A stretch of DNA of 64,000 bases, from assembly GCF_013343215.1 (NCBI RefSeq), contig NZ_CP039144.1, forward strand, positions 62,001 to 126,000, in the 5' to 3' direction. Below, one piece after another: positions 3,873-63,614 of this stretch. Origin of the DNA: Acinetobacter sp. 10FS3-1. GTDB taxonomy: Bacteria > Pseudomonadota > Gammaproteobacteria > Pseudomonadales > Moraxellaceae. The notes beneath the pieces were generated by a model. It saw only the letters and a list, made by a program, of their open reading frames with translations, did not search any database and was not told the DNA's origin. The position numbers and the translations under genes are program-made. Within the stretch, counting starts at the first letter, position 1. Each line of letters begins with the position of its first letter.

Positions 3873-3956
3873 TTGACTTATGCCATGTTTTAAGGCTATA
3901 ATTTCAGGCATATAGAGCAAACTGCTCAACCGGTCAACCAACCGGATTAATTGGTA
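3873..3956 (+). promoter_or_regulatory. promoter + H1 + pseudoknot leader
   Basis: TTGACT at 3873, TATAAT at 3897-3902. H1 is GAGCA-aac-TGCTC. S1 is CCGGT/ACCGG. S2 is ACCA/TGGT, a compensated variant of the usual AAGCC/GGCTT. The ATG is at 3975. Confidence 0.85.
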
Positions 3957-3974
3957 ATCTAAAGGGTTAAGAAT

Positions 3975-4436
3975 ATGAATTTAAGCATTTGGGCGACTAC
4001 CGCCAACCACATTAACAATGCAGAGCAAGGAGCAAGCCCAGAGCTATTCTCCTATGGGGTTTCGCTTACTCCTGATTTACGTCAGAACTATACCCCGCAG
4101 AAGGCTATTCACTTGGTCAGCCTATTGTTGGCAGTGGTTTTTAGCCGTCATAATGTCGATGCTATTCTATCTACACCTTCCGCAGAGCTGCGTAGTGGTG
4201 TGGTGAATGATAGTGAAGCTCCGGTGAATCAACAGGTCATTTATATGACAGCAAAGACAATTGAAGACGAGTACCTGAAACTCAAATGGTCTTTGGAAGA
4301 TATGGTACGTTTTAATCTGCGAGTGCGCCGTTGGTTATCTGAACGTGAGACAGATACCGTGGATGGTATTGGTAAGGCAATTTATGGTCTGTTAAAAGAC
4401 CTGGATGCCAGAGTTCATTTTCAACAAGCTGCTTAA
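3975..4436 (+). CDS. hypothetical protein, 153 aa
   Basis: Soluble, mostly helical protein with no recognised family. Starts MNLSIWATTANHINNA; the middle contains a conserved-looking helix QKAIHLVSLLLAVVFSRH and ends DARVHFQQAA. The start is supported by its position 19 nt after the pseudoknot. Terminator at 4453; single-gene cassette. Confidence 0.8.
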   Translation: MNLSIWATTANHINNAEQGASPELFSYGVSLTPDLRQNYTPQKAIHLVSLLLAVVFSRHNVDAILSTPSAELRSGVVNDSEAPVNQQVIYMTAKTIEDEYLKLKWSLEDMVRFNLRVRRWLSERETDTVDGIGKAIYGLLKDLDARVHFQQAA

Positions 4437-4452
4437 AACAGATCAGATTGAA

Positions 4453-4478
4453 GATCGGCTATATGCCGGTCTTTTTTT
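4453..4478 (+). terminator. rho-independent terminator
   Basis: GATCGGC-tatat-GCCGGTC then seven T. Confidence 0.9.
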
Positions 4479-4502
4479 GCTCCAAGAAAAACCAAAGAAC
4501 CA

Positions 4503-4534
4503 GGTAGGCGTTAGGTTTTTTCAGTAGAAAAAAA
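4503..4534 (+). repeat. T/A element copy 1
   Basis: GGTAGGCGTTAGG, T-run, CAGTAG, A-run. Between the terminator at 4453 and the promoter at 4619. Confidence 0.8.
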
Positions 4535-4618
4535 CAATCTCAAATCAATAACCCCTTTTCAGGTATCACCTGACCTTAATTGCTGCAAATATATCTGTAT
4601 CAACCGGCTTGATTTTAA

Positions 4619-4702
4619 TTGACTTATGCCATGTTTTATAAGACAATGACTAGCATATAGAGCAGACCGCTCACCCGGATAAGCCACCGGATTAAAGGCT
4701 TA
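4619..4702 (+). promoter_or_regulatory. promoter + H1 + pseudoknot leader
   Basis: TTGACT, 17 bp, GACAAT. H1 GAGC-agacc-GCTC; S1 CCGG/CCGG; S2 TAAGCC/GGCTTA. AAGGA follows, ATG at 4719. Confidence 0.85.
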
Positions 4703-4718
4703 ATAAAGGATTCAAATA

Positions 4719-5837
4719 ATGACTACTCTTCGCATTCAACCAGAACAAAACCGCGTTTTATTCTTAGGCAACCATATTGGTGCAGACGCATTCGAGAACC
4801 ACATGCGCAACTATGTTGCAGTTGGCTCAACTCTATTCAATACCCTTGAAAACATCCGTGAAGCTGCTCAAGAGCAAGTGCTGATTGAAGATTTCAGCCT
4901 ATCTAATTATCTTTCTGAGTTCGGCTTTGGTCATCCGGTGGTGAACCAATGGTTCCAGTCAAAGATTTACACTCCTTTCGTAACTCACCTTGTCGCCACT
5001 ACCCAGACTGCCCTTTCTCATTTTTCAAACCGTGAAACATTATCTGACGATGATATGGCATATCTGGAAGCTTATTTAGACGAGTTGAACTATAGCCAGT
5101 TAAGCCAACTTCCAACCAAAGGTATAGAACCAATTACACAACTGAAAAACCATTTCAGAAATTCCAATATTGGTGTAATGGCTGATTTACAGATGGCTAT
5201 GGAAGATATGGATGATGATGAAGTTGAAAACACCATTTTTGGTTCTGAACCATTCGAGCAAACAATTGAACACCTTAAATCACTGCTTGAATGTTCAGCA
5301 TGGACGGTAGATCAGAAAATCAAAGTCGTTGATCTATTCCTTGAGAATGTGGGTGGGTTCCAAGACCTGATCACTCACGCTGAATCAGACACCTATTCGC
5401 CATTCCAGATCATTAAGGAAGCTATGGATGACACCCCATTTATGCAGTTTGTACTTGGTTATAATGGGGAAACTACTTTTAATTTATATGGTAATGTTTA
5501 CCCTGTTGTGCAGCGCGATATTCACTGTCTACATGGTTATGTTGTAGCTGATTTTGCTAATTCTAAAGCCAGAACAGAAGCAGAGTTAAAAGCTGAAACT
5601 ATGGCTACTGCTGACTTTATTGCGGGTGTTCTGGGTGACACTATTTTTGAAGCTTACTCTTACCTTGTTGATTTAGAAAAACATTCAGTTGATTCTATCT
5701 TCAACCGTTTCCGCGAAGTAAGCAAACAATCACATACTGTTTTAATGGATACCATCAAGGATGTTTTGGAGCCTTTTATTCCAGAACTAAATTTAAAACA
5801 GCTCCGTTTAACCTATATTAATAATGCAGCAGTATGA
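4719..5837 (+). CDS. hypothetical protein, 372 aa
   Basis: Large, acidic, mainly helical cytoplasmic protein. It has an acidic run near residues 165-175 (MAMEDMDDDEVENTIFG) and no Cys-rich, Walker or HTH motif. No family recognised. Single-gene cassette with its own promoter, pseudoknot and terminator (5850). It is the second largest pseudoknot-led product in the window after the one at 14188. Confidence 0.85.
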   Translation: MTTLRIQPEQNRVLFLGNHIGADAFENHMRNYVAVGSTLFNTLENIREAAQEQVLIEDFSLSNYLSEFGFGHPVVNQWFQSKIYTPFVTHLVATTQTALSHFSNRETLSDDDMAYLEAYLDELNYSQLSQLPTKGIEPITQLKNHFRNSNIGVMADLQMAMEDMDDDEVENTIFGSEPFEQTIEHLKSLLECSAWTVDQKIKVVDLFLENVGGFQDLITHAESDTYSPFQIIKEAMDDTPFMQFVLGYNGETTFNLYGNVYPVVQRDIHCLHGYVVADFANSKARTEAELKAETMATADFIAGVLGDTIFEAYSYLVDLEKHSVDSIFNRFREVSKQSHTVLMDTIKDVLEPFIPELNLKQLRLTYINNAAV

Positions 5838-7443: not shown

Positions 7444-7504
7444 TTGACTTATGCCATGTTTTGACCGATAATTTATACATCAAGAACGAACATTTAGTCG
7501 TTCT
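7444..7504 (+). promoter_or_regulatory. ssb promoter with 5' hairpin, no pseudoknot
   Basis: TTGACT, 17 bp, GATAAT (7467-7472). The leader carries only AGAACGA-acatttag-TCGTTCT (7483-7504); S1 and S2 are absent. A natural comparison for the pseudoknot leaders. Confidence 0.8.
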
Positions 7505-7528
7505 CCTAAACATAAAAGGATACAAAAT

Positions 7529-8080
7529 ATGCGTGGTGTTAATAAAGCCATCCTGATAGGTGTATTGGGTCGTGACCCAGAGACAAAAACTTTCCCAAAT
7601 GGGGGCTGTCTTACTCAATTCTCAATCGCAACTTCTGATAATTGGACTGACAAAAACACTGGTGAGCGTAAAGAGCAAACCGAGTGGCATCGTATCGTGC
7701 TGTATAACCGTTTAGGCGAGATCGCACAGCAGTACCTTCGCAAAGGTTCCAAAGTCTACATTGAGGGTTCTCTGCGTACCCGCCAGTGGACTGATCAGAA
7801 TGGTCAGGAGCGTTACACAACCGAAATCCGTGGTGAGCAAATGCAAATGCTTGATAGCGGGAATAGTGGCAACAATAACAACAATGGCGGTAACGGTGGT
7901 CAAGGTCAGAACTTTGGCGGTGGTTACGGCAACAATGGCGGTCAAGGCGGTGGCTTTGGTGGCGGTTATGGTAATCAGAACTTTGGCGGTGGTTACGGTG
8001 GCAGTGAAAATGGCAATAAAGGTCGCAATGCCCCGCCACAACCGGCTCCGGTGGATTTAAGTGATGACATCCCATTCTAA
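7529..8080 (+). CDS. ssb: single-stranded DNA-binding protein
   Basis: 183 residues. The N-terminal OB fold (about 1-112) begins [20 protein letters not shown] and includes the TEWHRIV and [16 protein letters not shown] strands typical of bacterial SSB. A Gly/Asn-rich flexible linker follows, then the acidic C-terminal tip DDIPF that recruits replication and repair partners. Closest in style to Acinetobacter SSB, which is the main taxonomic clue in this window. SSB coats single-stranded DNA during plasmid replication or transfer. Transcribed alone, terminator at 8105. Confidence 0.97.
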
Positions 8081-9412: not shown

Positions 9413-9497
9413 TTGACTTATGCCATGTTTTGAAGATATGATTTACAACATATAGAGCAGATCGCTCAACAGGTAGAGCCACCTGATTAAAGGCTTT
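9413..9497 (+). promoter_or_regulatory. promoter + H1 + pseudoknot leader
   Basis: TTGACT, 18 bp, TATGAT. H1 GAGC-agatc-GCTC; S1 CAGGT/ACCTG; S2 GAGCC/GGCTT (one G-U). ATG at 9516. Confidence 0.85.
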
Positions 9498-9515
9498 AGA
9501 TTTAGGATAACATCT

Positions 9516-11662: not shown

Positions 11663-11746
11663 TTGACTTATGCCATGTTCTATAAGATAATGACTAATAA
11701 TTAATAGGTATTTTCACCGTACCGGGATGCCACCCGATTAAAGGCT
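11663..11746 (+). promoter_or_regulatory. promoter + weak H1 + pseudoknot leader
   Basis: TTGACT, 17 bp, GATAAT. H1 is weak (GGT-attttc-ACC). S1 CGGG/CCCG; S2 only GCC/GGC. One of the less stable copies. ATG at 11761. Confidence 0.65.
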
Positions 11747-11760
11747 ATAAGGTTTATCAG

Positions 11761-14086: not shown

Positions 14087-14168
14087 TTGACTTATGCCAT
14101 GTTTTACCGCTATAATCTCCACTATATCGAGCAGTTAAGCTCACCAGGAAGCCCCCTGATTATGGGTT
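14087..14168 (+). promoter_or_regulatory. promoter + H1 + pseudoknot leader
   Basis: TTGACT, TATAAT (14111-14116). H1 GAGC-agttaa-GCTC; S1 CAGG/CCTG; S2 AGCCC/GGGTT, register-shifted but still paired. ATG at 14188. Confidence 0.85.
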
Positions 14169-14187
14169 AATACAGGATTCAGAAATT

Positions 14188-17096: not shown

Positions 17097-17115
17097 AGAA
17101 AAAAGGGTATCTAAA

Positions 17116-17794: not shown

Positions 17795-17807
17795 GGAGGA
17801 TGTGGTT

Positions 17808-50945: not shown

Positions 50946-51031
50946 TTGAACTTATGCCATGTTTTAAGTAGTATTTTCATGTCGTTTAAATACGAAAAAT
51001 ATACATGGTAGAGCCACCAGAATTTAGGCTC
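50946..51031 (+). promoter_or_regulatory. promoter + pseudoknot leader
   Basis: TTGAAC variant, conserved core, TAGTAT. No clear H1. S1 TGG/CCA; S2 GAGCC/GGCTC (compensated). ATG at 51051. Confidence 0.75.
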
Positions 51032-51050
51032 ATTTTTTGGAAATGAAAAT

Positions 51051-51650: not shown

Positions 51651-51734
51651 TTGACTTATGCCATGTTTAAGCCCATAATAAACCACATACGGAGCAGAAA
51701 GCTCACCAGGTAAAGCCACCTGATTAATGGCTTA
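51651..51734 (+). promoter_or_regulatory. promoter + H1 + pseudoknot leader
   Basis: TTGACT, CATAAT. H1 GAGC-agaaa-GCTC; S1 CAGGT/ACCTG; S2 AAGCC/GGCTT. ATG at 51751. Confidence 0.9.
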
Positions 51735-51750
51735 AATTTAGGGTTGCCCC

Positions 51751-52325: not shown

Positions 52326-52406
52326 ACCCGCCCTGGCGGGTAAACCCACCCATACTTTAAACCAGAGTAGATCGCTCAAGCGGAACAGCAACCGCATTAA
52401 AAGCTG
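52326..52406 (+). promoter_or_regulatory. intercistronic hairpin + promoterless pseudoknot
   Basis: Hairpin ACCCGCC-ct-GGCGGGT, then H1 GAGT-agatc-GCTC, S1 GCGG/CCGC, S2 CAGC/GCTG (compensated). No promoter. ATG at 52426. Confidence 0.8.
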
Positions 52407-52425
52407 ATATACTGAGGATAAACCC

Positions 52426-53158: not shown

Positions 53159-53242
53159 TTGACTTATGCCATGTTTTGAACGATAATAGACAACATACAG
53201 AGCAGATAGCTCGCCAGGTTAAGCCACCTGATTACTGGCTTA
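53159..53242 (+). promoter_or_regulatory. promoter + H1 + pseudoknot leader
   Basis: TTGACT, 17 bp, GATAAT. H1 GAGC-agata-GCTC; S1 AGGT/ACCT; S2 TAAGCC/GGCTTA. ATG at 53262. Confidence 0.9.
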
Positions 53243-53261
53243 AATTTAGGGTATAAAAATC

Positions 53262-54377: not shown

Positions 54378-54647
54378 TCAACTGTTGTGCCACTCTATCC
54401 ACGGTTTAGCCATTGCTTCCTGTTTGGCTTTATCAATTCTCTTATTGATATTAATGATCAACGCAATAAAGATAACCAGAAAAACCAGGCTTAATATTGC
54501 GATAAATTGCATTGAAGCATGTTCTTTATGAGCATACTCCATAAAGCTACTTACCCCCATAAATAGCATTAAGCTCAAAGCCACAATAGCGCAGCCTTTG
54601 AAGTGACGTTTTTCGCTTTCTAAGTTTTTTATAAAACCTTCGTACAT
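54378..54647 (-). CDS. small membrane protein, 89 aa
   Basis: MYEGFIKNLESEKRHFKGCA; two transmembrane helices (about 19-36 AIVALSLMLFMGVSSFME; about 45-66 MQFIAILSLVFLVIFIALII) and a basic C-terminal tail. It is the only minus-strand gene here with a complete pseudoknot leader, which supports its reality. Confidence 0.8.
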   Translation of the reverse strand: MYEGFIKNLESEKRHFKGCAIVALSLMLFMGVSSFMEYAHKEHASMQFIAILSLVFLVIFIALIININKRIDKAKQEAMAKPWIEWHNS

Positions 54648-54664
54648 TTCTTCTTCCCCATAAC

Positions 54665-54742
54665 AAGCCAGAAATACGGTGGCTTTTCCGTTTAATCATA
54701 ACGATTCCTATACATTATATATTGTCTTATGCCATGTTTCAA
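54665..54742 (-). promoter_or_regulatory. minus-strand promoter + pseudoknot leader
   Basis: TTGAAA (54742-54737), 17 bp, TATAAT (54719-54714). The spacer contains CATGGCATAA, the conserved core inverted. S1 ACGG/CCGT; S2 AAGCC/GGCTT. ATG at 54647. Confidence 0.8.
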
Positions 54743-55370: not shown

Positions 55371-55413
55371 CTCTTAAAAGCGACACAAAATGACGTTTAT
55401 ATCATTTTTATAA

Positions 55414-55498
55414 TTTCCTTATGCCATGTTTCAAGGATATAATTAGTAGTATATAGAGTGGAAAGCTCAAGCGGGAAAGCCACCGTAGTAAAGGCTTA
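55414..55498 (+). promoter_or_regulatory. promoter (variant -35) + H1 + pseudoknot
   Basis: TTTCCT, conserved core, TATAAT. H1 GAGT-ggaaa-GCTC; S1 GCGG/CCGT; S2 AAGCC/GGCTT. ATG at 55518. Confidence 0.85.
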
Positions 55499-55517
55499 GA
55501 ATAAGGTCATAAAAATC

Positions 55518-56138
55518 ATGTCATTCTCACTATCACAGGCAGTTAGCCGCATTGCCTTTAACCCAACCATCAAAAATATAATGATTGTAAAATTATTCCA
55601 GGTGGATTCTGCAACAAAAAAATGCCAGAAGGAATACGCTACCAAAGTTACTTCACGTAATAAGTTTAATGCTTTGATACCAACTCAAGATATGAGCCAG
55701 ATAACAGCCTTTAATATGGAAATCATTGCTCACGCTACCGGTGTAGCTCGTCACAAGGTACTGGATATCTGTGTTAATGGCTCAATTACAGCACAAAGCA
55801 TTCATGACATTGCTTCGCTAAAATTCATGGTTCAACGCCGTAATGCTATCTGTGATTTGGTCATCAAAGAAATAGCAAGAGCACAATTCATAATAATTCA
55901 GAGTGAAATCAATTCAGGAAAAAATTACAACGACCTGTTTAGCAACAAAACCTTCCAGGAATGGTATTACACATTTAAAAAGCCATTACACCCACAAACA
56001 GAGGGTCTTATAGACAATACAAATTTAGTTGATGCGACCTACCAGATCGTACACTGTGGCTATTTTGAAATGACCAACTACCTGTTAGACCTTGTTGAAG
56101 AAGAGCACAAAGCTCGTTTTTATCCAAACGCTACCTAG
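55518..56138 (+). CDS. hypothetical protein, 206 aa (tandem paralogue C)
   Basis: MSFSLSQAVSRIAFNPTIKN. Clearly related to the next gene: shared A-TG-x-AR-x-KV, QINSGK/EINSGK-x-Y, SNKT-x-EW, KP-x-TEGL-x-x-x-T-x-VDATYQIV. Helical; unknown function. Single-gene cassette with its own terminator. Confidence 0.85.
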   Translation: MSFSLSQAVSRIAFNPTIKNIMIVKLFQVDSATKKCQKEYATKVTSRNKFNALIPTQDMSQITAFNMEIIAHATGVARHKVLDICVNGSITAQSIHDIASLKFMVQRRNAICDLVIKEIARAQFIIIQSEINSGKNYNDLFSNKTFQEWYYTFKKPLHPQTEGLIDNTNLVDATYQIVHCGYFEMTNYLLDLVEEEHKARFYPNAT

Positions 56139-56170
56139 TAAATCACTCCCCGGACTGCGGGGATTCCCAA

Positions 56171-56197
56171 AACTCCTGTACTGTAGGAGTTTTTTTA
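56171..56197 (+). terminator. rho-independent terminator
   Basis: AACTCCTGTA-c-TGTAGGAGTT-type stem and T-run; preceded by CCCCG/CGGGG. Confidence 0.85.
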
Positions 56198-56210
56198 TGC
56201 CTAGCCACAT

Positions 56211-56244
56211 GGTAGGCGTTAGGTTTTTTATATAATAAAAAAAT
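56211..56244 (+). repeat. T/A element copy 19
   Basis: GGTAGGCGTTAGG, T-run, ATATAAT, A-run. Confidence 0.85.
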
Positions 56245-56285
56245 ACTTTGATTATTTTAAGTCTATGATTTCTATATTGACTATG

Positions 56286-56368
56286 TTGACTTATGCCATG
56301 TTTCAAACCTATAATGAAGGCTCAGACGAACAACGTCAAACAGAAAAAGCCACTGTAATAATGGCTTA
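56286..56368 (+). promoter_or_regulatory. promoter + H1 + pseudoknot leader
   Basis: TTGACT, TATAAT. H1 GACG-aacaa-CGTC; S1 ACAG/CTGT; S2 AAGCC/GGCTT. ATG at 56388. Confidence 0.9.
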
Positions 56369-56387
56369 GAATAAGGGTTTAAAAATT

Positions 56388-56966
56388 ATGTTACTTTCAA
56401 CAGCTATCGGTCAGGTTCGCCGTAACCCAGGTATCACACATTTACTTGATTTGCATTTATTCACTGTGGATTTCACTACTAAGCGCGTTACCGATCACTC
56501 AACCAAAGTAAACGTCCTTGCCAGGATTAATGCTATGGTTCCACCTCAAGATTTAAACATTCTGGTTGGCTTTAAATTTGACATTATTGCCAATGCTACA
56601 GGCATTGCTCGCCAGAAGGTCGTTAATTTCCGTGCTCAAGACGAAATCTATAAAGATTCACTCACTCAAATAGCTGTATTGCCAAGTGAGGAAGAACGCC
56701 GTGATGCACTGTGCAATCTGGTTTTAAAGAGCATGGCGCGTATGCAATATTTAATGATCATGGCTCAGATTAATTCTGGCAAAGACTACAGTGAACTGCA
56801 AAGCAATAAAACCTATGAGGAATGGCAGCGCGACAGACCATTGAAGCCAGATACCGAAGGCTTGGTGGATAGCACCCATATCGTTGATGCGACATACCAG
56901 ATCGTTTCAGCCTTATATATTGATGCTGTAACCTACCTGTTAAACATAATTGTGGCTGATAAATAG
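56388..56966 (+). CDS. hypothetical protein, 192 aa (tandem paralogue D)
   Basis: MLLSTAIGQVRRNPGITHLL; diverged duplicate of 55518 with the same block order. In this pair both copies kept a full cassette, including promoter, H1, pseudoknot and terminator, unlike the 51751/52426 pair. Confidence 0.85.
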   Translation: MLLSTAIGQVRRNPGITHLLDLHLFTVDFTTKRVTDHSTKVNVLARINAMVPPQDLNILVGFKFDIIANATGIARQKVVNFRAQDEIYKDSLTQIAVLPSEEERRDALCNLVLKSMARMQYLMIMAQINSGKDYSELQSNKTYEEWQRDRPLKPDTEGLVDSTHIVDATYQIVSALYIDAVTYLLNIIVADK

Positions 56967-57025
56967 TTAGCGACAAAGACCGCAGCTTAACAACCCCACC
57001 CTGCCTGGCGGACTGGGGTTCCAGA

Positions 57026-57053
57026 AAGAAGCTCCTGACAGGGGGCTTCTTTT
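57026..57053 (+). terminator. rho-independent terminator
   Basis: AAGAAGCTCC-tgaca-GGGGGCTTCTTTT. Confidence 0.85.
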
Positions 57054-57071
57054 ATAAACTCCTGATAAACA

Positions 57072-57154
57072 TTGACTTATGCCATGTTTTAAGCCATAAT
57101 AAACCACATACAGAGCAGAACGCTCAACAGGTAGAGCCACCTGATTATTTGCTT
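57072..57154 (+). promoter_or_regulatory. promoter + H1 + weakened pseudoknot
   Basis: TTGACT, CATAAT. H1 GAGC-agaac-GCTC; S1 CAGGT/ACCTG; S2 reduced to AGC/GCT. Confidence 0.8.
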
Positions 57155-57173
57155 AATTTTAGGGTATAAAATC

Positions 57174-57470
57174 ATGTCTTTATTGAATCAAATTGAAGAA
57201 GTCAAACAAGCTTTAGAAACAGCTCAAGTACCAAGTGATCTAATTTTACGTTTCGCTAATAGTCACAAACTTGCTCAGATCATCCGTAAATACGACAATG
57301 CGATTGTCGCTCAGGTTCCTGATCACCTGGCACAAAACCTTGCTGCTGACTATGCTAACTTTCGTGCTAAGGGCTACACTTTGGCAGAAGCAACATACAG
57401 TGCAATCTGCACTATGTTTAACTACGAAAAACTCGTAGTTAAGGAAAGAGTTTACGGTTACGCCCAATAA
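57174..57470 (+). CDS. small helical protein, 98 aa
   Basis: MSLLNQIEEVKQALETAQVP... ending VVKERVYGYAQ. Helical, soluble, no recognised family. Terminator 12 bp after the stop. Confidence 0.8.
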   Translation: MSLLNQIEEVKQALETAQVPSDLILRFANSHKLAQIIRKYDNAIVAQVPDHLAQNLAADYANFRAKGYTLAEATYSAICTMFNYEKLVVKERVYGYAQ

Positions 57471-57482
57471 GACGAACTCAGG

Positions 57483-57512
57483 ATGCCTTCAACATGAAGG
57501 CATTTTTTTTGG
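57483..57512 (+). terminator. rho-independent terminator
   Basis: ATGCCTTC-aacat-GAAGGCAT and T-run. Confidence 0.9.
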
Positions 57513-57525
57513 AGCCGGAGAAAAT

Positions 57526-57558
57526 GGTAGGCGTTAGATTTTTTAGTATAAAAAAATG
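57526..57558 (+). repeat. T/A element copy 20
   Basis: GGTAGGCGTTAGA, T-run, AGTAT, A-run, ATG; the flank after it matches that of copy 12. Confidence 0.85.
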
Positions 57559-57637
57559 TTCCCGAATTTTGGAGCCGGGTGATTGGACTGTGTAGCAAAT
57601 CTCACTTTATAGATAAATTTTTAAAAGTTAATTAATG

Positions 57638-57721
57638 TTGACTTATGCCATGTTTCAAGCCATAATTAACGACATAGGGAACGAAGTGTTCCCCACGGAA
57701 GAGCCACCGTAGTAAAGGCTT
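57638..57721 (+). promoter_or_regulatory. promoter + H1 + pseudoknot leader
   Basis: TTGACT, CATAAT. H1 GGGAAC-gaagt-GTTCCC; S1 ACGG/CCGT; S2 AGCC/GGCT. GAGGG then ATG at 57738. Confidence 0.9.
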
Positions 57722-57737
57722 GAATGAGGGTAATAAT

Positions 57738-58415
57738 ATGCTACACAATAACACTATGCCGTTTGGCTTCTCTTCTTTCAATTCGCGCATGAGCACATTA
57801 GTTGCGAATGCTTGGCTTTCAACTTATCGCTATCACGCTTCTGAGCGCGATCAGTCAGGTGTATACGAAGTATCACCTATAGCTTCACGCCTTGACTTGG
57901 AAACTGCGAATAAAATCGCGTATGAAGTTAGTTCTTCAATTCATCAAACCCTATCTGATATTTTGTGCTTTGCTGATTGCTACAAAAAGCATGAAGGTTT
58001 AAGCCGTCCTAATGCGACCCATATCATGCGTGACGACCAGACTGTATTTTTACATGGTCTGTTACTGCTTGGATTGGATACCGACATTGCCCCGCAATTC
58101 GCTGTACAGTTGCACAAGCGATCTATGCAACTTATCACTCCTATAGAGCTGTTACTTGGCTTAAACCTGAATGCGTTTAAACGCATTTATGACATTGCCA
58201 AAGTAGGCGGTTTTAAATCCCTGACGGTTGAAGCCCAACAGAGTGTTTTAGACTTTGCAGCCAAGCAAATCAAACAGATTCGTAGCTATCTTCGTAGCAG
58301 TGGTGAATCGCTAGGTGTGGATGCTGATGTGATTGAGCAGATCAGCAAGGAGTATAAGCATGATCTGGGCTACAAGGTCACGATTGAGGAATGCACCAAA
58401 TCGGCTGCTGCATAA
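57738..58415 (+). CDS. hypothetical protein, 225 aa
   Basis: Start at 57738 (MLHNNTMPFGFSSFNS), supported by GAGGG 8 nt upstream; the longer frame to 57720 begins in S2. Helical soluble protein with an Ala-rich C-terminus (IEECTKSAAA). No recognised family. Confidence 0.8.
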   Translation: MLHNNTMPFGFSSFNSRMSTLVANAWLSTYRYHASERDQSGVYEVSPIASRLDLETANKIAYEVSSSIHQTLSDILCFADCYKKHEGLSRPNATHIMRDDQTVFLHGLLLLGLDTDIAPQFAVQLHKRSMQLITPIELLLGLNLNAFKRIYDIAKVGGFKSLTVEAQQSVLDFAAKQIKQIRSYLRSSGESLGVDADVIEQISKEYKHDLGYKVTIEECTKSAAA

Positions 58416-58432
58416 GCAGCCAATCTGGAAGC

Positions 58433-58454
58433 CCTGCGTAATGCGGGGTTTTTT
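58433..58454 (+). terminator. rho-independent terminator
   Basis: CCCTGC-gtaat-GCGGGG and six T. Confidence 0.9.
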
Positions 58455-58476
58455 AATACCTACAGCCAGGGAACCA

Positions 58477-58510
58477 GGTAGGCGTTAGGTTTTTTCAGTA
58501 GAAAAAAATG
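58477..58510 (+). repeat. T/A element copy 21
   Basis: GGTAGGCGTTAGG, T-run, CAGTAG, A-run, ATG; only 30 bp before the next promoter. Confidence 0.85.
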
Positions 58511-58539
58511 TTCCCGATTTTCTTGGAGACAGGTTTATA

Positions 58540-58622
58540 TTGACTTATGCCATGTTTTTAGCCATAATCAAGCATATATAGAGCAGAAAGCTCACCCGGA
58601 AAAGCCACCGGATTAAAGGCTT
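58540..58622 (+). promoter_or_regulatory. promoter + H1 + pseudoknot leader
   Basis: TTGACT, CATAAT. H1 GAGC-agaaa-GCTC; S1 CCGG/CCGG; S2 AAGCC/GGCTT. AAGGAA then ATG at 58640. Confidence 0.9.
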
Positions 58623-58639
58623 AGATAAGGAATAGAAAT

Positions 58640-58897
58640 ATGACAACGCATGAAGAAAAAATACGCTTGGACATGATCAATTTTGCTCGTAACTCTTGCA
58701 CCGTTACAACCAATTCGCTTTTAAGCACTGTAAACCTACAATGCAACGTAGATAGCGAAGTTTCACACCTCTTGCAAGATCACGAAGCTGATGAATTTAT
58801 CCGTAAAGTGGATGCTATTTATAATGAAGGGGGCTTGTTTTATGAGCAAGCCGAATACTTGGTTGCTCACGAATACTTAGACCTCCTACAGCCATAA
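58640..58897 (+). CDS. small acidic protein, 85 aa
   Basis: MTTHEEKIRLDMINFARNSC...; helical acidic protein. First gene of a two-gene unit with 58980. No recognised family. Confidence 0.8.
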   Translation: MTTHEEKIRLDMINFARNSCTVTTNSLLSTVNLQCNVDSEVSHLLQDHEADEFIRKVDAIYNEGGLFYEQAEYLVAHEYLDLLQP

Positions 58898-58915
58898 AAG
58901 CCTAATAACTCCATA

Positions 58916-58943
58916 CCATGCGGTGCAGTGTACTCCGCATGGT
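58916..58943 (+). other. intercistronic hairpin without T-run
   Basis: ACCATGCGG-loop-CCGCATGGT between 58640 and 58980; more likely RNA processing or stability than termination. Confidence 0.6.
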
Positions 58944-58979
58944 TACTATGATAATTACTTGATGAAAGGGTGAAAAAAT

Positions 58980-59528
58980 ATGCCGGCACAATCTTTTTTC
59001 TATGAAACTTCGCATTCAAATTTTGGAATAATGTTTCAGAATGATGCTGAACAATATATTGAAGTCATCCAAGATATTCAGGCTCAAGCCAAAGCCCTTG
59101 ATGAATCAAACAAGGATATTTACCGGGTGATTGCTCAATTCTCTTCAAGTGAAGATGGCATTCAAATCTTTGTAGCCCCGCATGTGCGCTATGTTGAGCT
59201 TGCTGAGACGGTTCTGGAATGCTTCAAAGCTAGTGGAAAGGTTTACTTCAAAAATAAGCACAACCAACATCGCCAGATCAGAAAGCAAGGGTTTTTAAGC
59301 GAACTTCAAAAAATTATTCACATTTCTAATGGTAATAAAAAGAATGAAGTGGCTAAGACCGTGGCACTGATCAAAGAACATTTTGAAAAACAAGCAGCAA
59401 AACTGGATAAGGCTGTAGAAAGTATCGCCCTTAAATACAATTTAGGTGTGGTGAAGCATCAGGAATACATTGCCGGACTAGCTCACACATGGATTGAAGA
59501 GCAATCACCTGAACCAAAGGCAGTCTAA
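58980..59528 (+). CDS. hypothetical protein, 182 aa
   Basis: MPAQSFFYETSHSNFGIMFQ...; helical, basic middle (KNKHNQHRQIRKQGFL), ends EEQSPEPKAV. Ribosome site GAAAGGGTGA. No own promoter, so it depends on the 58540 promoter. No recognised family. Confidence 0.8.
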   Translation: MPAQSFFYETSHSNFGIMFQNDAEQYIEVIQDIQAQAKALDESNKDIYRVIAQFSSSEDGIQIFVAPHVRYVELAETVLECFKASGKVYFKNKHNQHRQIRKQGFLSELQKIIHISNGNKKNEVAKTVALIKEHFEKQAAKLDKAVESIALKYNLGVVKHQEYIAGLAHTWIEEQSPEPKAV

Positions 59529-59551
59529 TATTTAAGAATGGAAAACAATAC

Positions 59552-59576
59552 CCTACCCTGACAAGGTTAGGTTTTA
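59552..59576 (+). terminator. weak rho-independent terminator
   Basis: CCTA-c-CCT-gaca-AGG-t-TAGG and TTTTAATTT. Confidence 0.55.
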
Positions 59577-59612
59577 ATTTGTCGAATTGCAGATTGATAG
59601 CACTCATTTACA

Positions 59613-59696
59613 TTGACTTATGCCATGTTTAATGATTATAATTCTTTGCATCAAAGGCACTAAGCCAAACCGGATAAGTCACCGGATTAAAGATTT
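59613..59696 (+). promoter_or_regulatory. promoter + H1 + pseudoknot leader
   Basis: TTGACT, TATAAT. H1 GGC-actaa-GCC; S1 CCGG/CCGG; S2 AAGTC/GATTT. ATG at 59714. Confidence 0.85.
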
Positions 59697-59713
59697 AGAT
59701 TGAGGGTAAAATA

Positions 59714-60379
59714 ATGTTTTTAGAAGCTATCCAGAATCAAGCTGAAAACTCGCAAAGCAATGAATACAGCTTTCCTATGCTAGTTGCATCAAAGGTTAAT
59801 TTTTTTGATGGTGCGTTCACTCAAACTCAAATTTTCAGCAAAATTATTGCAGAGAAAAAACAGAGTGTTGATGTGCTCGATACTGATGACATTTACATTG
59901 AAATCACCGGACAGGTAGCTGATCTACCGTTCCATGCTCGCAGTAGTTCACTGTTTTATTGGACTGCTTTAAGGGATTACCCTACGCATAATGCGTGTAA
60001 GCTCGCTTCTCTTACGCTCCACAGTCTGCGTGTAGCATTATTTGTTCAGGTGGCGAAGAACCTTCCTCAAAGCAAGTTGGTTGCTCCTGTGCGCCAGAGC
60101 AATTTCTTGGATGCTGTGGATGCGTGTTACCCGAACATTGACCTGTCAGACGAAACGACAGCGATTGAGCATGCAAATATGCTAATTGGTAAGGCAAAGT
60201 TTAATTTAGCCAATCTTGAACGTCCGTCTACAAGTTTTGAAGATGATTTATTCAAGACAGTTGATCGTGCTGTATATCAAGCAGCAGAGCTACTGTTTGA
60301 AAAAATGAATGAAGCTATCTCAACTGAGCGAGTAAACAAAATCCGTCAAGCTGTGTACCTTACCCGCTTCACTTACTAA
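59714..60379 (+). CDS. hypothetical protein, 221 aa
   Basis: MFLEAIQNQAENSQSNEYSF...; strand-rich start, then helices (NACKLASLTLHSLRVALFVQ). Layout comparable to 41237. Soluble; no recognised family. Followed by a GC-rich hairpin and a promoterless leader for a broken gene. Confidence 0.8.
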   Translation: MFLEAIQNQAENSQSNEYSFPMLVASKVNFFDGAFTQTQIFSKIIAEKKQSVDVLDTDDIYIEITGQVADLPFHARSSSLFYWTALRDYPTHNACKLASLTLHSLRVALFVQVAKNLPQSKLVAPVRQSNFLDAVDACYPNIDLSDETTAIEHANMLIGKAKFNLANLERPSTSFEDDLFKTVDRAVYQAAELLFEKMNEAISTERVNKIRQAVYLTRFTY

Positions 60380-60386
60380 ACCGATC

Positions 60387-60448
60387 ACTCAGGCGGGATA
60401 CCCTGCCTGAGATACCTCATAACTACAGGTCGCCACCTGATTAAAGGC
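60387..60448 (+). promoter_or_regulatory. intercistronic hairpin + promoterless pseudoknot
   Basis: CTCAGGC-loop-GCCTGAG, then S1 CAGGT/ACCTG and S2 GCC/GGC. No promoter. Confidence 0.7.
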
Positions 60449-60468
60449 AATATTCAGGAATTATAATC

Positions 60469-60606
60469 ATGTCTAAATTCAATGTAGCACTCGACAACTT
60501 AATCCATCTTTCGGAGAGCGTTTAAATCCGATTCAGTACATCACCACCCTATTTTGGTGAAGAAGCTAAAATTCGCTTATTAAACCTATTCGATATTGGG
60601 TTCTAA
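60469..60606 (+). pseudogene. short gene with in-frame TAA
   Basis: MSKFNVALDNLIHLSESV, TAA (60523-60525), then in the same frame IRFSTSPPYFGEEAKIRLLN and a few more to TAA 60604. Both halves look coding, so a point nonsense mutation (or sequencing error) in a shrunken cassette gene is likely; read-through is possible but unsupported. Confidence 0.5.
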
Positions 60607-60625
60607 GCCCAGATCAGCAGCCGGA

Positions 60626-60650
60626 ACCGCGTCAATAGATGCGGTTTTTT
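60626..60650 (+). terminator. rho-independent terminator
   Basis: ACCGC-gtcaatagat-GCGGT and six T. Confidence 0.85.
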
Positions 60651-60686
60651 ATTACCTTAGATTTTGATTGAAAAGGCTTGGCACAC

Positions 60687-60719
60687 GGTAGGCGTTAGGT
60701 TTTTTAATATAAAAAAATA
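60687..60719 (+). repeat. T/A element copy 22
   Basis: GGTAGGCGTTAGG, T-run, AATAT, A-run. Confidence 0.85.
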
Positions 60720-60798
60720 GTTCAGATTTTTCAGGAACACATGCCAGGTCAGTATGCAAATTAATTGCTTCGGCAATGTAGATAAATGATGTTTTATA

Positions 60799-60882
60799 TT
60801 GACTTATGCCATGTTTTAACCCATAATTAAACACATACAGAGCAGATAGCTCACACGGATAAGCCACCGTAGTAAAGGCTTA
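60799..60882 (+). promoter_or_regulatory. promoter + H1 + pseudoknot leader
   Basis: TTGACT, CATAAT. H1 GAGC-agata-GCTC; S1 ACGG/CCGT; S2 TAAGCC/GGCTTA. ATG at 60899. Confidence 0.9.
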
Positions 60883-60898
60883 GGTTTAGGAGTTTCTT

Positions 60899-61282
60899 AT
60901 GCAATACGCAATTTTCTCTGATTTAGACATTTTACAGCGTCATATTTGCTCAAACCTTGATTGGAACGGCAAGAATGAAAGCCAAGTCGTTTTTGTGGAT
61001 GAAGAAGAAGCTCCTGTAGCTTTGCTTTGCAATGACCTTGATACTGCGTTCAAGTCAACTGCTGTATGGGTGGACGGCGTGAAATTAGCAGACGGCATTA
61101 TCAACCCTGAAAATGCCCTGTACATTACCGCTCTCCGCAATATTGAGCCAAACATGGTTGAGTTTTCTCAACAGCATAAATACCTAGTAATCGCTGATGT
61201 GAATGGTGAGCTAGACCTACACCACTTAGTTAAATCAAGTCAGCTTGAGCTAGTGGATACCATCTTAGAGGACGATGAATAA
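60899..61282 (+). CDS. hypothetical acidic protein, 127 aa
   Basis: MQYAIFSDLDILQRHICSNL...; alpha/beta, acidic, ending VDTILEDDE. Soluble. No recognised family. Followed by two strong hairpins. Confidence 0.8.
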   Translation: MQYAIFSDLDILQRHICSNLDWNGKNESQVVFVDEEEAPVALLCNDLDTAFKSTAVWVDGVKLADGIINPENALYITALRNIEPNMVEFSQQHKYLVIADVNGELDLHHLVKSSQLELVDTILEDDE

Positions 61283-61301
61283 AACCTCACCCTATACCCT
61301 C

Positions 61302-61374
61302 AGAGGTTCAGGTTATGATTCTCCTGAACCTCTCTTTAACCCCCCTGCCACTATTTAGGTCAGGGGTTTTTTTT
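61302..61374 (+). terminator. tandem hairpins, second a strong terminator
   Basis: AGAGGTTCAGG / CCTGAACCTCT (61302-61333), then CCCCTG / CAGGGG with eight T (61342-61374). Confidence 0.9.
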
Positions 61375-61404
61375 ACCTATTTTTTGTGAAGCCCTGGTGA
61401 ACTT

Positions 61405-61438
61405 GGTAGGCGTTAGATTTTTTAAAGTAAAAAAAATG
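61405..61438 (+). repeat. T/A element copy 23
   Basis: GGTAGGCGTTAGA, T-run, AAAGT, A-run, ATG. Confidence 0.85.
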
Positions 61439-61506
61439 ATTGAATATTTAGGGATATAGCCGATGGCGCGGATTACAACTCAGTGATTAATCTGGAACAG
61501 ATTGTA

Positions 61507-61598
61507 TTGACTTATGCCATGTTTGAGGCGATAATTTCCACATACTAATGAATCGGCTCAATATGCCAAAACGGTCGCACTCACCGAATTATGAGTGC
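61507..61598 (+). promoter_or_regulatory. promoter + H1 + pseudoknot with fully changed S2
   Basis: TTGACT, GATAAT. H1 GGC-tcaatat-GCC; S1 CGGT/ACCG; S2 GCACTC/GAGTGC, six compensated pairs with none of the usual sequence. ATG at 61618. Confidence 0.9.
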
Positions 61599-61617
61599 TT
61601 AGGGGAAAAAATTTTAA

Positions 61618-62125
61618 ATGTCAGCAGTAGCACATATTTGTCCGGTAGCAGTTGACGCTCCGGTTTACCAGATAGAAAGAACAACTGATTTATCAATGGC
61701 TCAGTTCCTTGCTCAAATCAAATCACTATTGAACAATGATTTCTTTGCGCCAGTGATTACACCTGAACAATGGGCTTCTAAAGCCTTGATCGGCACTGAT
61801 CTGGACCAGATATGCGAACACCTTTCTGAGAGCACATATACCTTTAATGACCTCACCGGTGAAGTAGTATTCAAAACCCATGATGATGACAAAGCTCTTC
61901 TGGATTTTGAAAACATTGGTGGTCATTTCAAACTAGCGGTAAAGTCTGAACATAGCCTTAAGCCTAAAGGACACCCAAACATAAACCTGAACATTATTCC
62001 GTTGTTCTTATGGTTTGCGCTTCATTGAATCAATTGAAACTCGCATTCACAACATGGTTGCGTTGCGTATTTTGAAAAACCAAGACGACTTCTCAAAACT
62101 GCTTGCGAAGCACCGTTTTAAATAA
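61618..62125 (+). pseudogene. gene with C-terminal frameshift
   Basis: The ATG frame encodes 136 aa (MSAVAHICPVAVDAPVYQIE...) and ends IIPLFLWFALH at 62028. The +1 frame across the same point reads FRCSYGLRFIESIETRIHNM then VALRILKNQDDFSKLLAKHR to TAA 62125 and is clearly coding, so the ancestral product was about 168 aa. The shift lies between about 61993 and 62026. A 136-aa product may still be made. No recognised family. Confidence 0.65.
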
Positions 62126-62191
62126 TGACTAATGATTAGGGTAGATGCCACTACCTTACCTTATAACTAATGATTGAAGGATAAGAGCGAT

Positions 62192-63274
62192 ATGCCAAGC
62201 TTTATCTCAACTGGAAAAAAACTCAAAGTGCTTACTAGCTCTATTTGGTCTAACAACCAACAGGCTTTATTTGGTATAGCACCATCGAACACCAATTTAG
62301 AATCTGGTCCACAAACCAGTGTGCAATGTTTCGCCGTGGTAGAAGATATTAATTTGAAGCCGGAAACCATGACGATCTATTTGCTCGTGAACACACAATT
62401 CAAAAGCATTAATGAAAATGGCGTAGACGATGAACAGGTCAAAATGAAGGACTGCGAAATCAAGATCGCTCGCAGCTTTGATCTGACCCAAATCCATTCT
62501 GGCGAGCTTAACTACAACCAATTGCATGCACTTGGAAAAGACTTTGCAACTGAGGTGTTAAAATACGCCCAATTTGCGTTATTTTCTGAGTTAGGCAAAG
62601 CTGATGCCTTACCTTTAGGTATCTATGAAAACCTGATTTTCAACCCAGAAAATATTAGTATTAATCTGGATGCAAGCGAGAATAAAGTGAACTTAACGCC
62701 CTTTATTCATTACTATCGCTTACTCAATATACCGCGTATGCACCTAATTGATCAGTTTATTAAATTTGCCAAAAAAAAAGGTGAAATGAGCTTCACCGTT
62801 GATCAAATGCGTTTCTGCTTGTCGGAACAACCTTGTCTGGGTGTATTAAATAATTGCAAACATAGTGCAGCCAAACCAGTCGATTTACGCCATCCACACT
62901 TACTGGATATTCATATCAAAGGTGAAACTGCCTTGCAAGAAATGTTTAAGTCTGTACTTTATGACTTAACCATGAATGGCAATAACCGAAAATCACATGA
63001 ATATGAGTTATTCAGTGATTTACTGCATACAAATAATTTTAATGAAGCATTCCTGAGCCATGTTCAACCCACAAACGAATCTATCTCTAATACTTTAGAT
63101 CAGATGAACTACGCATTATTTAACTTTAGCAATGCTCAAAAAAACCTGGACAAAATTGAAGATAATATTCATAAGCAGCACTATCAATACAATCTTGCCT
63201 GGTTTGCAGCAACATTAGGGTATATCGAAGCGGCCGTGGAATCATGCTGCCACGTATATACAGTTAAAAAATGA
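62192..63274 (+). CDS. hypothetical protein, 360 aa, possible +1-frame extension
   Basis: Start at ATG 62192 (MPSFISTGKKLKVLTSSIWS) with AAGGATAAGAG upstream; the TTG at 62174 is less likely. Soluble protein; the C-terminal half is helical (NALNQMNYALFNFSNAQ-like, QKNLDKIEDNIHKQ). It ends VKK-TGA, but the +1 frame continues ENDEQAPFAMKQLDQQPISV then SGAAIPV to 63356, again coding-like. No promoter between it and 61618, so it is probably co-transcribed. Confidence 0.75.
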   Translation: MPSFISTGKKLKVLTSSIWSNNQQALFGIAPSNTNLESGPQTSVQCFAVVEDINLKPETMTIYLLVNTQFKSINENGVDDEQVKMKDCEIKIARSFDLTQIHSGELNYNQLHALGKDFATEVLKYAQFALFSELGKADALPLGIYENLIFNPENISINLDASENKVNLTPFIHYYRLLNIPRMHLIDQFIKFAKKKGEMSFTVDQMRFCLSEQPCLGVLNNCKHSAAKPVDLRHPHLLDIHIKGETALQEMFKSVLYDLTMNGNNRKSHEYELFSDLLHTNNFNEAFLSHVQPTNESISNTLDQMNYALFNFSNAQKNLDKIEDNIHKQHYQYNLAWFAATLGYIEAAVESCCHVYTVKK

Positions 63275-63369
63275 AAATGACGAACAGGCTCCTTTTGCTA
63301 TGAAGCAGCTAGATCAGCAACCAATCAGCGTATCGGGTGCAGCAATTCCGGTGTAATCCTCACCCACCT

Positions 63370-63397
63370 AAAAAGAGCAACCTGTTTGCTCTTTTTT
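63370..63397 (+). terminator. rho-independent terminator
   Basis: AAAAAGAGCAA-cctgt-TTGCTCTTTTTT. Confidence 0.9.
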
Positions 63398-63404
63398 TAT
63401 CGCA

Positions 63405-63493
63405 AGAACCTACGCCAACAAGAATATGAAGAAATTCGGGAACGTAGAAATAGTATAAATAAAAAGGCTGAAACTTCTGATGTACCATTCTAA
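63405..63493 (+). pseudogene. C-terminal fragment with SSB-like tip
   Basis: Open frame without start: KNLRQQEYEEIRERRNSINK then KAETSDVPF-stop. The last residues resemble the SSB C-terminal tip (D-D/V-P-F). Only about 29 codons remain, after a terminator, so probably debris. Confidence 0.3.
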
Positions 63494-63529
63494 AAATTCC
63501 TAAGCACCCACGGCGTAAGTTGGTTTTTA

Positions 63530-63614
63530 TTGACTTATGCCATGTTTTAGCAGTATAATTCATATATACAGAGCAGATAGCTCACACGGAAAAGCCCCCG
63601 CAATAAAAGGCTTA
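63530..63614 (+). promoter_or_regulatory. promoter + H1 + pseudoknot leader
   Basis: TTGACT, TATAAT. H1 GAGC-agata-GCTC; S1 CGG/CCG; S2 AAGCC/GGCTT. ATG at 63633. Confidence 0.85.

Follow-up and report, generated by a model that had tools for sequence, protein, structure and literature searches.

A recurrent 5' hairpin and predicted H-type pseudoknot in the mRNA leaders of dozens of genes on one Acinetobacter plasmid

The window analysed here, a stretch of 64,000 nucleotides, lies within a 395-kb contig of Acinetobacter sp. 10FS3-1, and tested segments match the A. indicus B18 plasmids pB18-1 and pB18-3. Of the 30 window proteins that were scanned, 27 had no Pfam match. Protein searches for orthologues returned 3, 1 and 3 relatives, not counting the protein from the window itself. 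Dozens of genes of this one replicon, mostly unrelated to one another, are preceded by leaders combining a hairpin with a pseudoknot, about 60 of which were counted on the whole contig.

Most window leaders stand behind a promoter core, TTGACTTATGCCATGTTT (example copy at 3873-3890, + strand), which occurs 39 times on the + strand of the window at up to two mismatches, 28 times exactly. The sequence-only reading had placed a leader after almost every core; a majority do carry one, but the share is only about three quarters (30 of 39; 24 of the 28 exact cores), since the cores at 802, 3606, 7444, 18946, 29053, 38724, 38892, 47277 and 54722 have none. Its estimate of about 35 leaders comes close to the 33 that we found, 32 on the + strand and one on the - strand, and together with the contig-wide count this bears out the idea of one element common to dozens of plasmid genes. 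Besides the 30 + strand leaders behind listed cores, one follows a core with three mismatches (23063) and one, at 52356, is coreless, which makes the leader a module of its own. A start codon on the leader's own strand was found downstream of 32 of the 33. When both strands of the contig were scanned for pseudoknots, 58 of 105 promoter-like sites scored at least 18 as against 6.0% of 3000 random stretches, and 43 scored at least 22 as against 0.6%.

Read from its 5' end, the leader consists of a 4-bp hairpin (H1), a few nucleotides, an H-type pseudoknot, a spacer, the Shine-Dalgarno (SD) sequence and the start codon. Within the pseudoknot, a stem S1 of about 4 bp is followed by a loop (L1) of 1-3 nt, a stem S2 of about 5 bp, a junction of 0-1 nt and an AUUAAA-like loop (L3) of 5-7 nt. 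In 61 leaders, and within the ranges allowed in the pseudoknot scan, which bound all three lengths, L1 measures 2 nt in 42, 1 nt in 13 and 3 nt in 6, the S1/S2 junction 1 nt in 46 and 0 in 15, and L3 6 nt in 46, 5 nt in 9 and 7 nt in 6. The predicted fold has the classical H-type geometry that had been proposed, with two crossing helices, both of which covary, a short loop over S2 and a longer one over S1. Its placement is nearly constant: the pseudoknot ends a median of 18 nt before the start codon (quartiles 17-19; n=59, no start having been found for two of the 61 leaders), and the 12-22 nt originally given holds for 53 of the 59 but not for six outliers at 2, 4, 7, 10, 10 and 40 nt. The distance from pseudoknot to SD is 5-7 nt in 46 of 58 leaders. 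Of the 39 leaders in which a fixed motif list located both the -10 box and the 5' hairpin, 34 have 11-12 nt between the two. The knot does not include the SD, so that folding need not hide it. Accessibility of the SD in nested folds, a method blind to the pseudoknot itself, was 0.489 compared with 0.452 in shuffled leaders (difference 0.038, s.e. 0.029, n=58), a gain that is neither clear nor significant.

The individual leaders are given here with bit scores from covariance model R1 and on the + strand unless stated otherwise. S2 reads AAGCC/GGCTT before ORF 4719 (4652-4710; S1 4675-4678/4687-4690, S2 4681-4685/4697-4701; 63.2 bits), ORF 51751 (51684-51742; S1 CAGG/CCTG; 66.1 bits), ORF 53262 (53192-53250; S1 CAGG/CCTG; 59.2 bits), ORF 55518 (55448-55506; S1 GCGG/CCGT, outer pair G-U; 61.5 bits), its paralogue ORF 56388 (56317-56376; S1 ACAG/CTGT; 36.3 bits), ORF 58640 (58573-58631; S1 CCGG/CCGG; 69.6 bits, the best match) and ORF 60899 (60832-60890; S1 ACGG/CCGT; 65.8 bits), as well as behind the core at 17713 (17747-17802; S1 CAGG/CCTG; 27.3 bits), before the start codon at 63633 (63563-63622; S1 ACGG/CCGC with an outer mismatch; 47 bits), in a leader with no ORF of 40 codons directly behind it (31433-31491; S1 GCAG/CTGC; 61.7 bits) and in the sole - strand leader, that of ORF 54378-54647 (54656-54714; hairpin AATC/GATT, S1 ACGG/CCGT, arms read by eye; 42.9 bits, outside the model-building rows). 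One G-U pair enters S2 in the leaders of ORF 9516 (9447-9505; S1 CAGG/CCTG, S2 GAGCC/GGCTT; 60 bits), ORF 32344 (32276-32335; S1 CCGG/CCGG, S2 GAGCC/GGCTT; 54.9 bits), ORF 34864 (34794-34852; S1 ACGG/CCGT, S2 AAGTC/GGCTT; 60.8 bits) and ORF 59714 (59647-59705; S1 CCGG/CCGG, S2 AAGTC/GATTT; 56.5 bits), and in those with starts at 36973 (36904-36962; S1 GCAG/CTGC, S2 GAGCC/GGCTT; 41.8 bits) and 57738 (57671-57730; 5' hairpin of GGGAAC/GTTCCC type, S1 ACGG/CCGT, S2 GAGCC/GGCTT; 46.2 bits).

Other S2 strings are found before ORF 3975 (3907-3965; S1 CCGG/CCGG, S2 ACCAA/TTGGT; 51.9 bits), ORF 17116 (17047-17105; ATGCC/GGCAT; 42.4 bits, outside the model-building rows), ORF 22531 (22459-22518; TAACC/GGTTA; 43.7 bits), ORF 23160 (23086-23151, behind the three-mismatch core; ATACCA/TGGTAT; 19.5 bits), ORF 24611 (24543-24601; AAGTC/GACTT; 53.6 bits), ORF 38134 (38065-38123; S1 ACGG/CCGT, again AAGTC/GACTT; 65.5 bits), ORF 41237 (41170-41227; AAACC/GGTTT; 55.7 bits), ORF 51051 (50981-51040; S1 TGGT/ACCA, S2 GAGCC/GGCTC; 28.8 bits) and ORF 52426, whose leader is the coreless one (52356-52415; S1 GCGG/CCGC, S2 CAGC/GCTG; 39.6 bits, outside the model-building rows). 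Two more were missed by the model and come from the pseudoknot scan, namely those of ORF 33262 (33190-33255; an atypical, longer 5' hairpin, S1 CAGG/CCTG, S2 GCCGA/TCGGA with four good pairs, CCGA/TCGG) and ORF 61618 (61545-61610; S1 CGGT/ACCG, S2 GCACTC/GAGTGC). All eleven S2 variants that the sequence-only reading had named are present at their genes. The remaining leaders are those of ORF 14188 (14121-14178; S1 CAGG/CCTG, S2 AGCCC/GGGTT; 31.4 bits), ORF 25776 (25708-25767; S1 GCAG/CTGC, S2 AAGCT/GGCTT; 39.5 bits), the start codon at 29543 (29477-29534; S1 ACGG/CCGT, S2 AAGCC/GGCTG, outer pair A-G; 49.4 bits), ORF 57174 (57105-57163; S1 CAGG/CCTG, S2 imperfect; 56.6 bits, scan score 18) and, weakly, ORF 11761 (11694-11756; 19.7 bits, scan score 15).

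In alignment A1, whose 61 leaders were picked by pairing score so that its statistics lean toward structure, 82.7% of 785 cells are paired as against 69.5% after shuffling, and 102 are doubly changed as against 34.3. In a less biased test on 81 leaders chosen by promoter alone, with arm columns fixed after the alignment had been viewed, own arms paired better than swapped ones with z of 9.6, 12.3 and 10.9 for the three helices (both arms present in 70, 77 and 77 of the 81 rows), none of 2000 permutations being as good; where only differing partners were compared, own arms were better in 63-76% of comparisons and worse in 12-21%. Tested helix by helix against a tree-aware null in an anchored set of 59 leaders, likewise less biased, in an analysis devised after the single-pair outcomes, S2 was equalled by 0 of 1000 runs both in pairing and in the G statistic, H1 by 1 and 0, and S1 by 4 and 10. 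The 39 doubly changed cells of S1 exceed the null maximum of 38, beating every run; those of S2 (34, null maximum 52) and H1 (39, maximum 44) fall within the null range. Among single pairs, none fell below E 1 in the 81-promoter alignment, and only one reached E of about 0.05 (0.045-0.06) in the anchored set, whose 59 of 87 leaders were selected by a motif combining loop bases with two positions in the 3' arm of S1 and include one row (p170939) that is probably no leader. That set yields 31 different pairs of S2 strings, which are fixed-column readings and include imperfect and out-of-register ones. The compensated changes described for S1 and H1 as well as S2 are real in that each helix beats both swapped arms and the tree-aware null, and the covariation is confirmed at the level of helices, but not at that of single pairs, which mostly fail the tree-aware null. 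Unpaired bases are kept across A1 (A53 in 55 of 61 leaders, A58 in 60, U60 in 57; A61 and A62 are also conserved), and the inner S1 pair is the only nearly fixed stem position. That stems diverge while loop bases stay points to selection for shape.

The prospect that a known RNA family would already cover the element was not borne out: none of 4227 Rfam families reached the gathering score anywhere in the window, and nothing relevant appeared up to E 5 in the region 55400-63700. The covariance model, which does not contain S1, gave matches at E of at most 0.01 in 33 of 175 Acinetobacter genomes including the source genome, with 31 candidates scored per genome under strict filters by which weak members can be missed; the best match outside the source genome reached 31 bits as against 69.6 for the best leader. 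The six best outside matches were variants of one recurring stretch, none with an intact S1 by eye and several with broken hairpin pairs, and a contig with three matches (G136 contig 72) showed neither core nor leader series. From these we judge the outside matches to be chance or unrelated. Copies of the core also occur in 8 viral stretches, in 16 stretches of genome contigs and, singly, in 9 other genomes of the genus out of 119; none of these 33 loci has a downstream leader by eye, and the model, run over 24 of them, gave 3 weak matches at E no higher than 1, the strongest with 19.9 bits. A degenerate pseudoknot pattern, in which the S2 arms are complementary by design, matched viral contigs twice: one match (L110, 22.2 bits) has an ATG about 15 nt downstream and an SD-like GGAGG, yet no S1 pairing was seen, and the second, a partial match (L111, 17.4 bits), lacks an ATG or SD context. 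A phage collection gave no match or matches at E of at least 3 only, no viral contig carrying a plasmid protein was found, and a plasmid collection matched pB18-1 and pB18-3 only, its remaining rows having E of at least 2. Hence, no convincing relative was found beyond this plasmid lineage, and a literature search (top-ranked titles and beginnings of abstracts) returned no paper on these leaders. The SAS/ESAS elements of cluster K mycobacteriophages, a 13-bp fixed sequence GGGATAGGAGCCC and a 17-bp inverted repeat with a consensus, are similar in being short elements that recur where translation of a subset of genes begins, about half of them preceded by an inverted repeat (PMC3203893). They differ in that the cited part of that report describes no pseudoknot (PMC3203893), and neither the SAS sequence nor the inverted repeat was seen by eye in alignment A1.

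What might such a leader do? We tentatively favour, at slightly less than an even chance, an intrinsic device that docks the ribosome, perhaps through ribosomal protein S1, and protects the mRNA. The promoter core would supply coordinated transcription of the plasmid genes; the transcript, judging from the -10 box, would start some 5-6 nt upstream of the 4-bp hairpin, which would guard the mRNA end against 5'-end-dependent decay; and the pseudoknot would dock the 30S subunit beside the mRNA channel exit, raising or setting translation initiation with no need for a dedicated ligand. Protein S1, reported to bind pseudoknots, may be the docking partner. S1-domain proteins are absent from the plasmid contig (C2), all 12 matches being on contig C1, so any such role would rest on host S1. 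The docking reading draws on helices kept by compensated change, selection for shape, nearly fixed placement, an SD outside the knot and the coreless leader at 52356. Several observations count against it: constant loop bases would not be expected if the element did nothing but dock, unless these bases engage in tertiary contacts, the SD is not significantly more accessible than in shuffled leaders, and nine of the 39 cores are leaderless. Moreover, leader pseudoknots in other systems repress.

Docking is also favoured by two published precedents. The tisB mRNA of E. coli likewise has a 5'-proximal pseudoknot in its leader, reportedly needed for binding of S1 and the 30S subunit, and the same source names rpsO as an S1-bound knot (PMC7708055); the tisB standby site, however, is separated by about 100 nt from a sequestered ribosome-binding site (RBS) downstream of it, whereas here the knot is mostly 5-7 nt from an SD outside it. 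In the IncI-alpha plasmid ColIb-P9, a plasmid mRNA likewise carries a pseudoknot upstream of its RBS, and translation of repZ depends on it (PMC8383071). That case concerns one gene under an antisense-RNA switch, whereas the present knots are compact and local, precede dozens of genes and have no known antisense RNA. The repZ pseudoknot presumably forms by long-range loop pairing.

The main rival is a translational operator, in which one plasmid-encoded RNA-binding protein would read knot shape and loop bases and repress or activate the whole set post-transcriptionally, much as with T4 gp32 or ribosomal-protein leaders; we consider it possible, if doubtful. In its favour, the same element recurs ahead of dozens of one replicon's genes, most of them unrelated, and sits at the edge of the ribosome site, and the unpaired bases A53, A58, U60, A61 and A62 are conserved; a new RNA-binding protein could also hide among the many proteins without a Pfam match. 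Variable stems, on the other hand, speak against recognition by stem sequence, though a factor could still read shape or the conserved loop bases, and no candidate emerged among the families searched (ProQ/FinO, with no match anywhere in the genome, and S1-domain proteins on the plasmid contig). The T4 gene 32 and rpsO leaders, in which a pseudoknot serves as translational operator, belong to single genes with known binding proteins, and none is known here. The parallel with T4 gene 32 drawn by the sequence-only reading is a loose one: the plasmid ssb gene (7529-8080) does have a core and a 5' hairpin, yet the scan gave only a sub-threshold, A-U-only alternative to the pseudoknot there, with a score of 17.0, and 17 is attained by 10% of random stretches. 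In a broader form, which we hold to be rather unlikely, one plasmid-encoded or host factor would read the shape of some 60 leaders with diverged stems and, with the replicon-specific promoter core, set the translation of a large share of the largely uncharacterised plasmid genes as a replicon-wide post-transcriptional regulon.

It is improbable that the leader is mainly an mRNA stabiliser or insulator, whose hairpin and knot would shelter the 5' end and hold the SD free of upstream sequence, with translation rate not the target. The largely constant distance of the hairpin from the -10 box and the many genes with a core promoter of their own would suit it, but stability alone does not demand the near-constant spacing of pseudoknot and SD, the gain in SD accessibility is not significant, and the coreless leader at 52356 lies between two genes and may not be a 5' end. 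Far less probable still is a riboswitch. Small H-type knots with an A-rich loop adjoin the RBS in preQ1-I and SAM-II, so that topology, position and conserved loop bases are all reminiscent of an aptamer for a small molecule; the plasmid leaders, unlike these, lack both a match to the Rfam family models (at gathering score over the window, up to E 5 in 55400-63700) and fixed aptamer stems, only the inner S1 pair being nearly invariant, and dozens of copies precede mostly unrelated genes. Finally, it is hardly credible that these are binding sites in the DNA or simply reflect recent gene duplication, for although the leaders are mutually related and adjoin a conserved DNA core, crossing arms cannot form one DNA cruciform, just 3 paralogous pairs occur among 70 proteins downstream of leaders, nearly all window leaders are followed by a start codon on the same strand, and stem cells hold 16 G-U against 3 A-C (counting helices in which no more than one cell departs from Watson-Crick pairing; 23 against 7 under a laxer rule, 17 against 4 on A1), an excess expected if sense-strand RNA folds, which supports an element acting as RNA rather than DNA.

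Leader pseudoknots are known as single cases, and what is striking here is their number, about 60 on one replicon. With their differing and mostly self-matching stems, these leaders amount to a natural mutagenesis series from which the free and the constrained bases of an H-type knot can be read, and the effect on initiation of a pseudoknot beside the ribosome site becomes directly testable. The family further suggests that a large plasmid may run its own layer of RNA-level control.

In an alignment of 61 leaders, comprising 13 pairs, 82.7% of the cells are paired, as against 69.5% after shuffling and 22-44% when the arms are slid, and double changes occur at 12 of the 13 pairs, a number also reached by 66 of 500 shuffles. 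Since these rows had been selected by pairing, a separate, pairing-independent arm-swap test was made on all 81 forward-strand promoters with at most two mismatches to the conserved core, TTGACTTATGCCATGTTT, at 15-186 kb of the plasmid contig NZ_CP039144.1 (C2); arms were read by alignment column, and each leader's own arms were compared with those of other leaders. Own arms formed strong helices in 50 of 70 cases for the 5' hairpin (H1), 50 of 77 for stem S1 and 44 of 77 for stem S2, whereas the best of 2000 permutations with swapped arms reached 35, 25 and 23, respectively. Relatedness was taken into account by re-dealing substitutions along a FastTree tree. Against this null most single pairs fail (none passes in one alignment and one pair, E 0.045-0.06, in the other), with helix pairs among the top-ranked. 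Sums by helix were equalled, for pairing and G respectively, in 0 and 0 of 1000 null runs for S2, 1 and 0 for H1, and 4 and 10 for S1, while S2 shifted by one column as a control was equalled in 27 to 314 of 1000. The strong covariation claimed by the sequence-only reading therefore holds for whole helices, but not for most single pairs.

Three paralogous protein pairs were compared. The reading frames starting at window positions 55518 and 56388 encode proteins of 43% identity, and their leaders differ in S1, with GCGG/CCGU in the former and ACAG/CUGU in the latter; a second pair has CCGG/CCGG and ACGG/CCGU, and in the third the outer S1 pair is mismatched in one member. The leader helices are constrained as RNA, not DNA: non-Watson-Crick cells in well-formed helices are G-U in 16 cases and A-C in three (one-sided binomial approximately 0.002, the cells not being independent), and a constraint at the DNA level would be indifferent to strand.

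The hairpin lies 11-12 nt from the -10 box in 34 of the 39 leaders in which both were recognised by a preset set of motifs and, if transcription starts about 7 nt past the -10 box, it opens the transcript. Among the 61 aligned leaders, L1 is 2 nt long in 42, the junction 1 nt in 46 and L3 6 nt in 46; 57 have G-C as their inner S1 pair, and the constant unpaired bases, numbered by alignment column, are A53 (55/61), A58 (60/61), U60 (57/61), A61 (53/61) and A62 (51/61). The SD is outside the pseudoknot, 5-7 nt from it in 46 and 7-11 nt from the start codon in 48 of 58 leaders, three without a start or SD being set aside. In nested folds of these 58, SD accessibility does not clearly exceed that of shuffled leaders (0.489 versus 0.452, difference 0.038, s.e. 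0.029). The pseudoknot ends 12-22 nt before the start, as had been proposed, in 53 of 59 leaders (median 18), but not in the others; similarly, a leader follows 30 of the 39 forward-strand cores in the window (at most two mismatches), so that the "almost every" of the sequence-only reading amounts to roughly three quarters.

After 105 promoter-like sites on C2, a pseudoknot scan scored at least 18 in 58 and, at a higher cut, at least 22 in 43, versus 6.0% and 0.6% of 3000 random stretches. A covariance model of hairpin and S2 without S1, trained on 61 rows (score at least 17.5, C2 15-186 kb), returned 67 C2 rows with E<=0.1, including one place counted twice as two overlapping loci, and 62 at E<=0.01, E-values being rough because calibration was shortened. 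Its 32 matches in the window include a partial one at 60432 that was left out of the leader count. Leaders outside the training rows include those at 17047 (+), 52356 (+, without core) and 54656 (-), each with a start codon just downstream; S1, a feature absent from the model, pairs in all three, with an outer G-U at 17047. Another core-less leader, with a hairpin, an imperfect S1 and S2 GAGC/GCTC, stands before an ATG directly after a terminator-like hairpin (C2, about 181980-182080). The plasmid ssb gene (window 7444-8080) has a promoter core and 5' hairpin; its leader contains no pseudoknot above the scan threshold, and a weak UUUA/UAAA alternative is present.

C2 comprises 395,494 bases, of which the window covers 62001-126000. 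Window 3600-5000 is 100% identical to Acinetobacter indicus B18 plasmid pB18-1, the promoters and leaders from 36871 onwards recur on pB18-3 of the same strain (printed sequences compared by eye), and about 36300-36870 is the junction of sequence split in B18 between the end of pB18-1 and pB18-3. Possibly, C2 is a cointegrate of pB18-1 and pB18-3. Pfam matches at E<=0.01 were obtained for three of 30 window proteins scanned (ssb, GmrSD_N and DUF1281_C), and when three of the proteins were searched in a collection of 5.8 billion sequences, the relatives recovered, not counting the query itself, numbered 3, 1 and 3. pB18-3 carries annotated type I-F CRISPR effector genes (cas3f-csy1-csy2-csy3-cas6f, 39078-46000), with no adaptation genes among the annotations listed for its positions 1-84177, and C2 has tandem A-rich repeats of AAATAG-like units at about 217850-218090 (-).

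The window has no Rfam match; no description was found in the literature searched, and in the sequence collections searched convincing members of the family come only from this plasmid lineage. In a viral contig (IMGVR_UViG_3300018875_000003), positions 2612-2676 match the model's S2 and AUUAAA-like loop (22.2 bits) but leave S1 unpaired; an ATG preceded by an SD-like GGAGG follows after about 15 nt. This may be a chance match or a distant relative. Leader pseudoknots as a kind are already known, but our searches turned up no description of some 60 related ones dispersed over a single replicon.

We tentatively rank first, at slightly under even chances, a role in which the pseudoknot would be an intrinsic docking point for the ribosome, alongside protection of the 5' end, because the pseudoknot ends approximately at the mRNA exit from the 30S subunit and leaves the SD outside. 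This ranking also draws on two reports: ribosomal protein S1 is reported to bind H-type pseudoknots (PMC7708055), and translation of the plasmid gene repZ needs a pseudoknot before its RBS (PMC8383071). An operator for a trans-acting protein comes second, as a somewhat less likely reading. The computed results favour neither of the two: SD accessibility in nested folds is not clearly raised, and searches for two kinds of RNA-binding protein gave no S1-domain protein on C2 and no ProQ match in the genome.

As for the promoters, the core at window 54722-54739 sits between two divergent genes, its reverse complement lying on the minus strand just upstream of TATAAT, ahead of the minus-strand leader 54656-54714; because of this arrangement, the core may function as the operator of a DNA-binding protein acting in both directions. 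A candidate activator of the core promoters is encoded elsewhere on C2, beyond the window: a protein of about 230 aa with an RNA polymerase alpha C-terminal domain match (C2 53607-53762, minus strand, 36.1 bits), likewise annotated in pB18-1. Since 94 of the 95 copies of the core in the genome (at most two mismatches) are on this single contig, 89 of these 94 on the forward strand, the core probably defines a replicon-specific transcription regulon.
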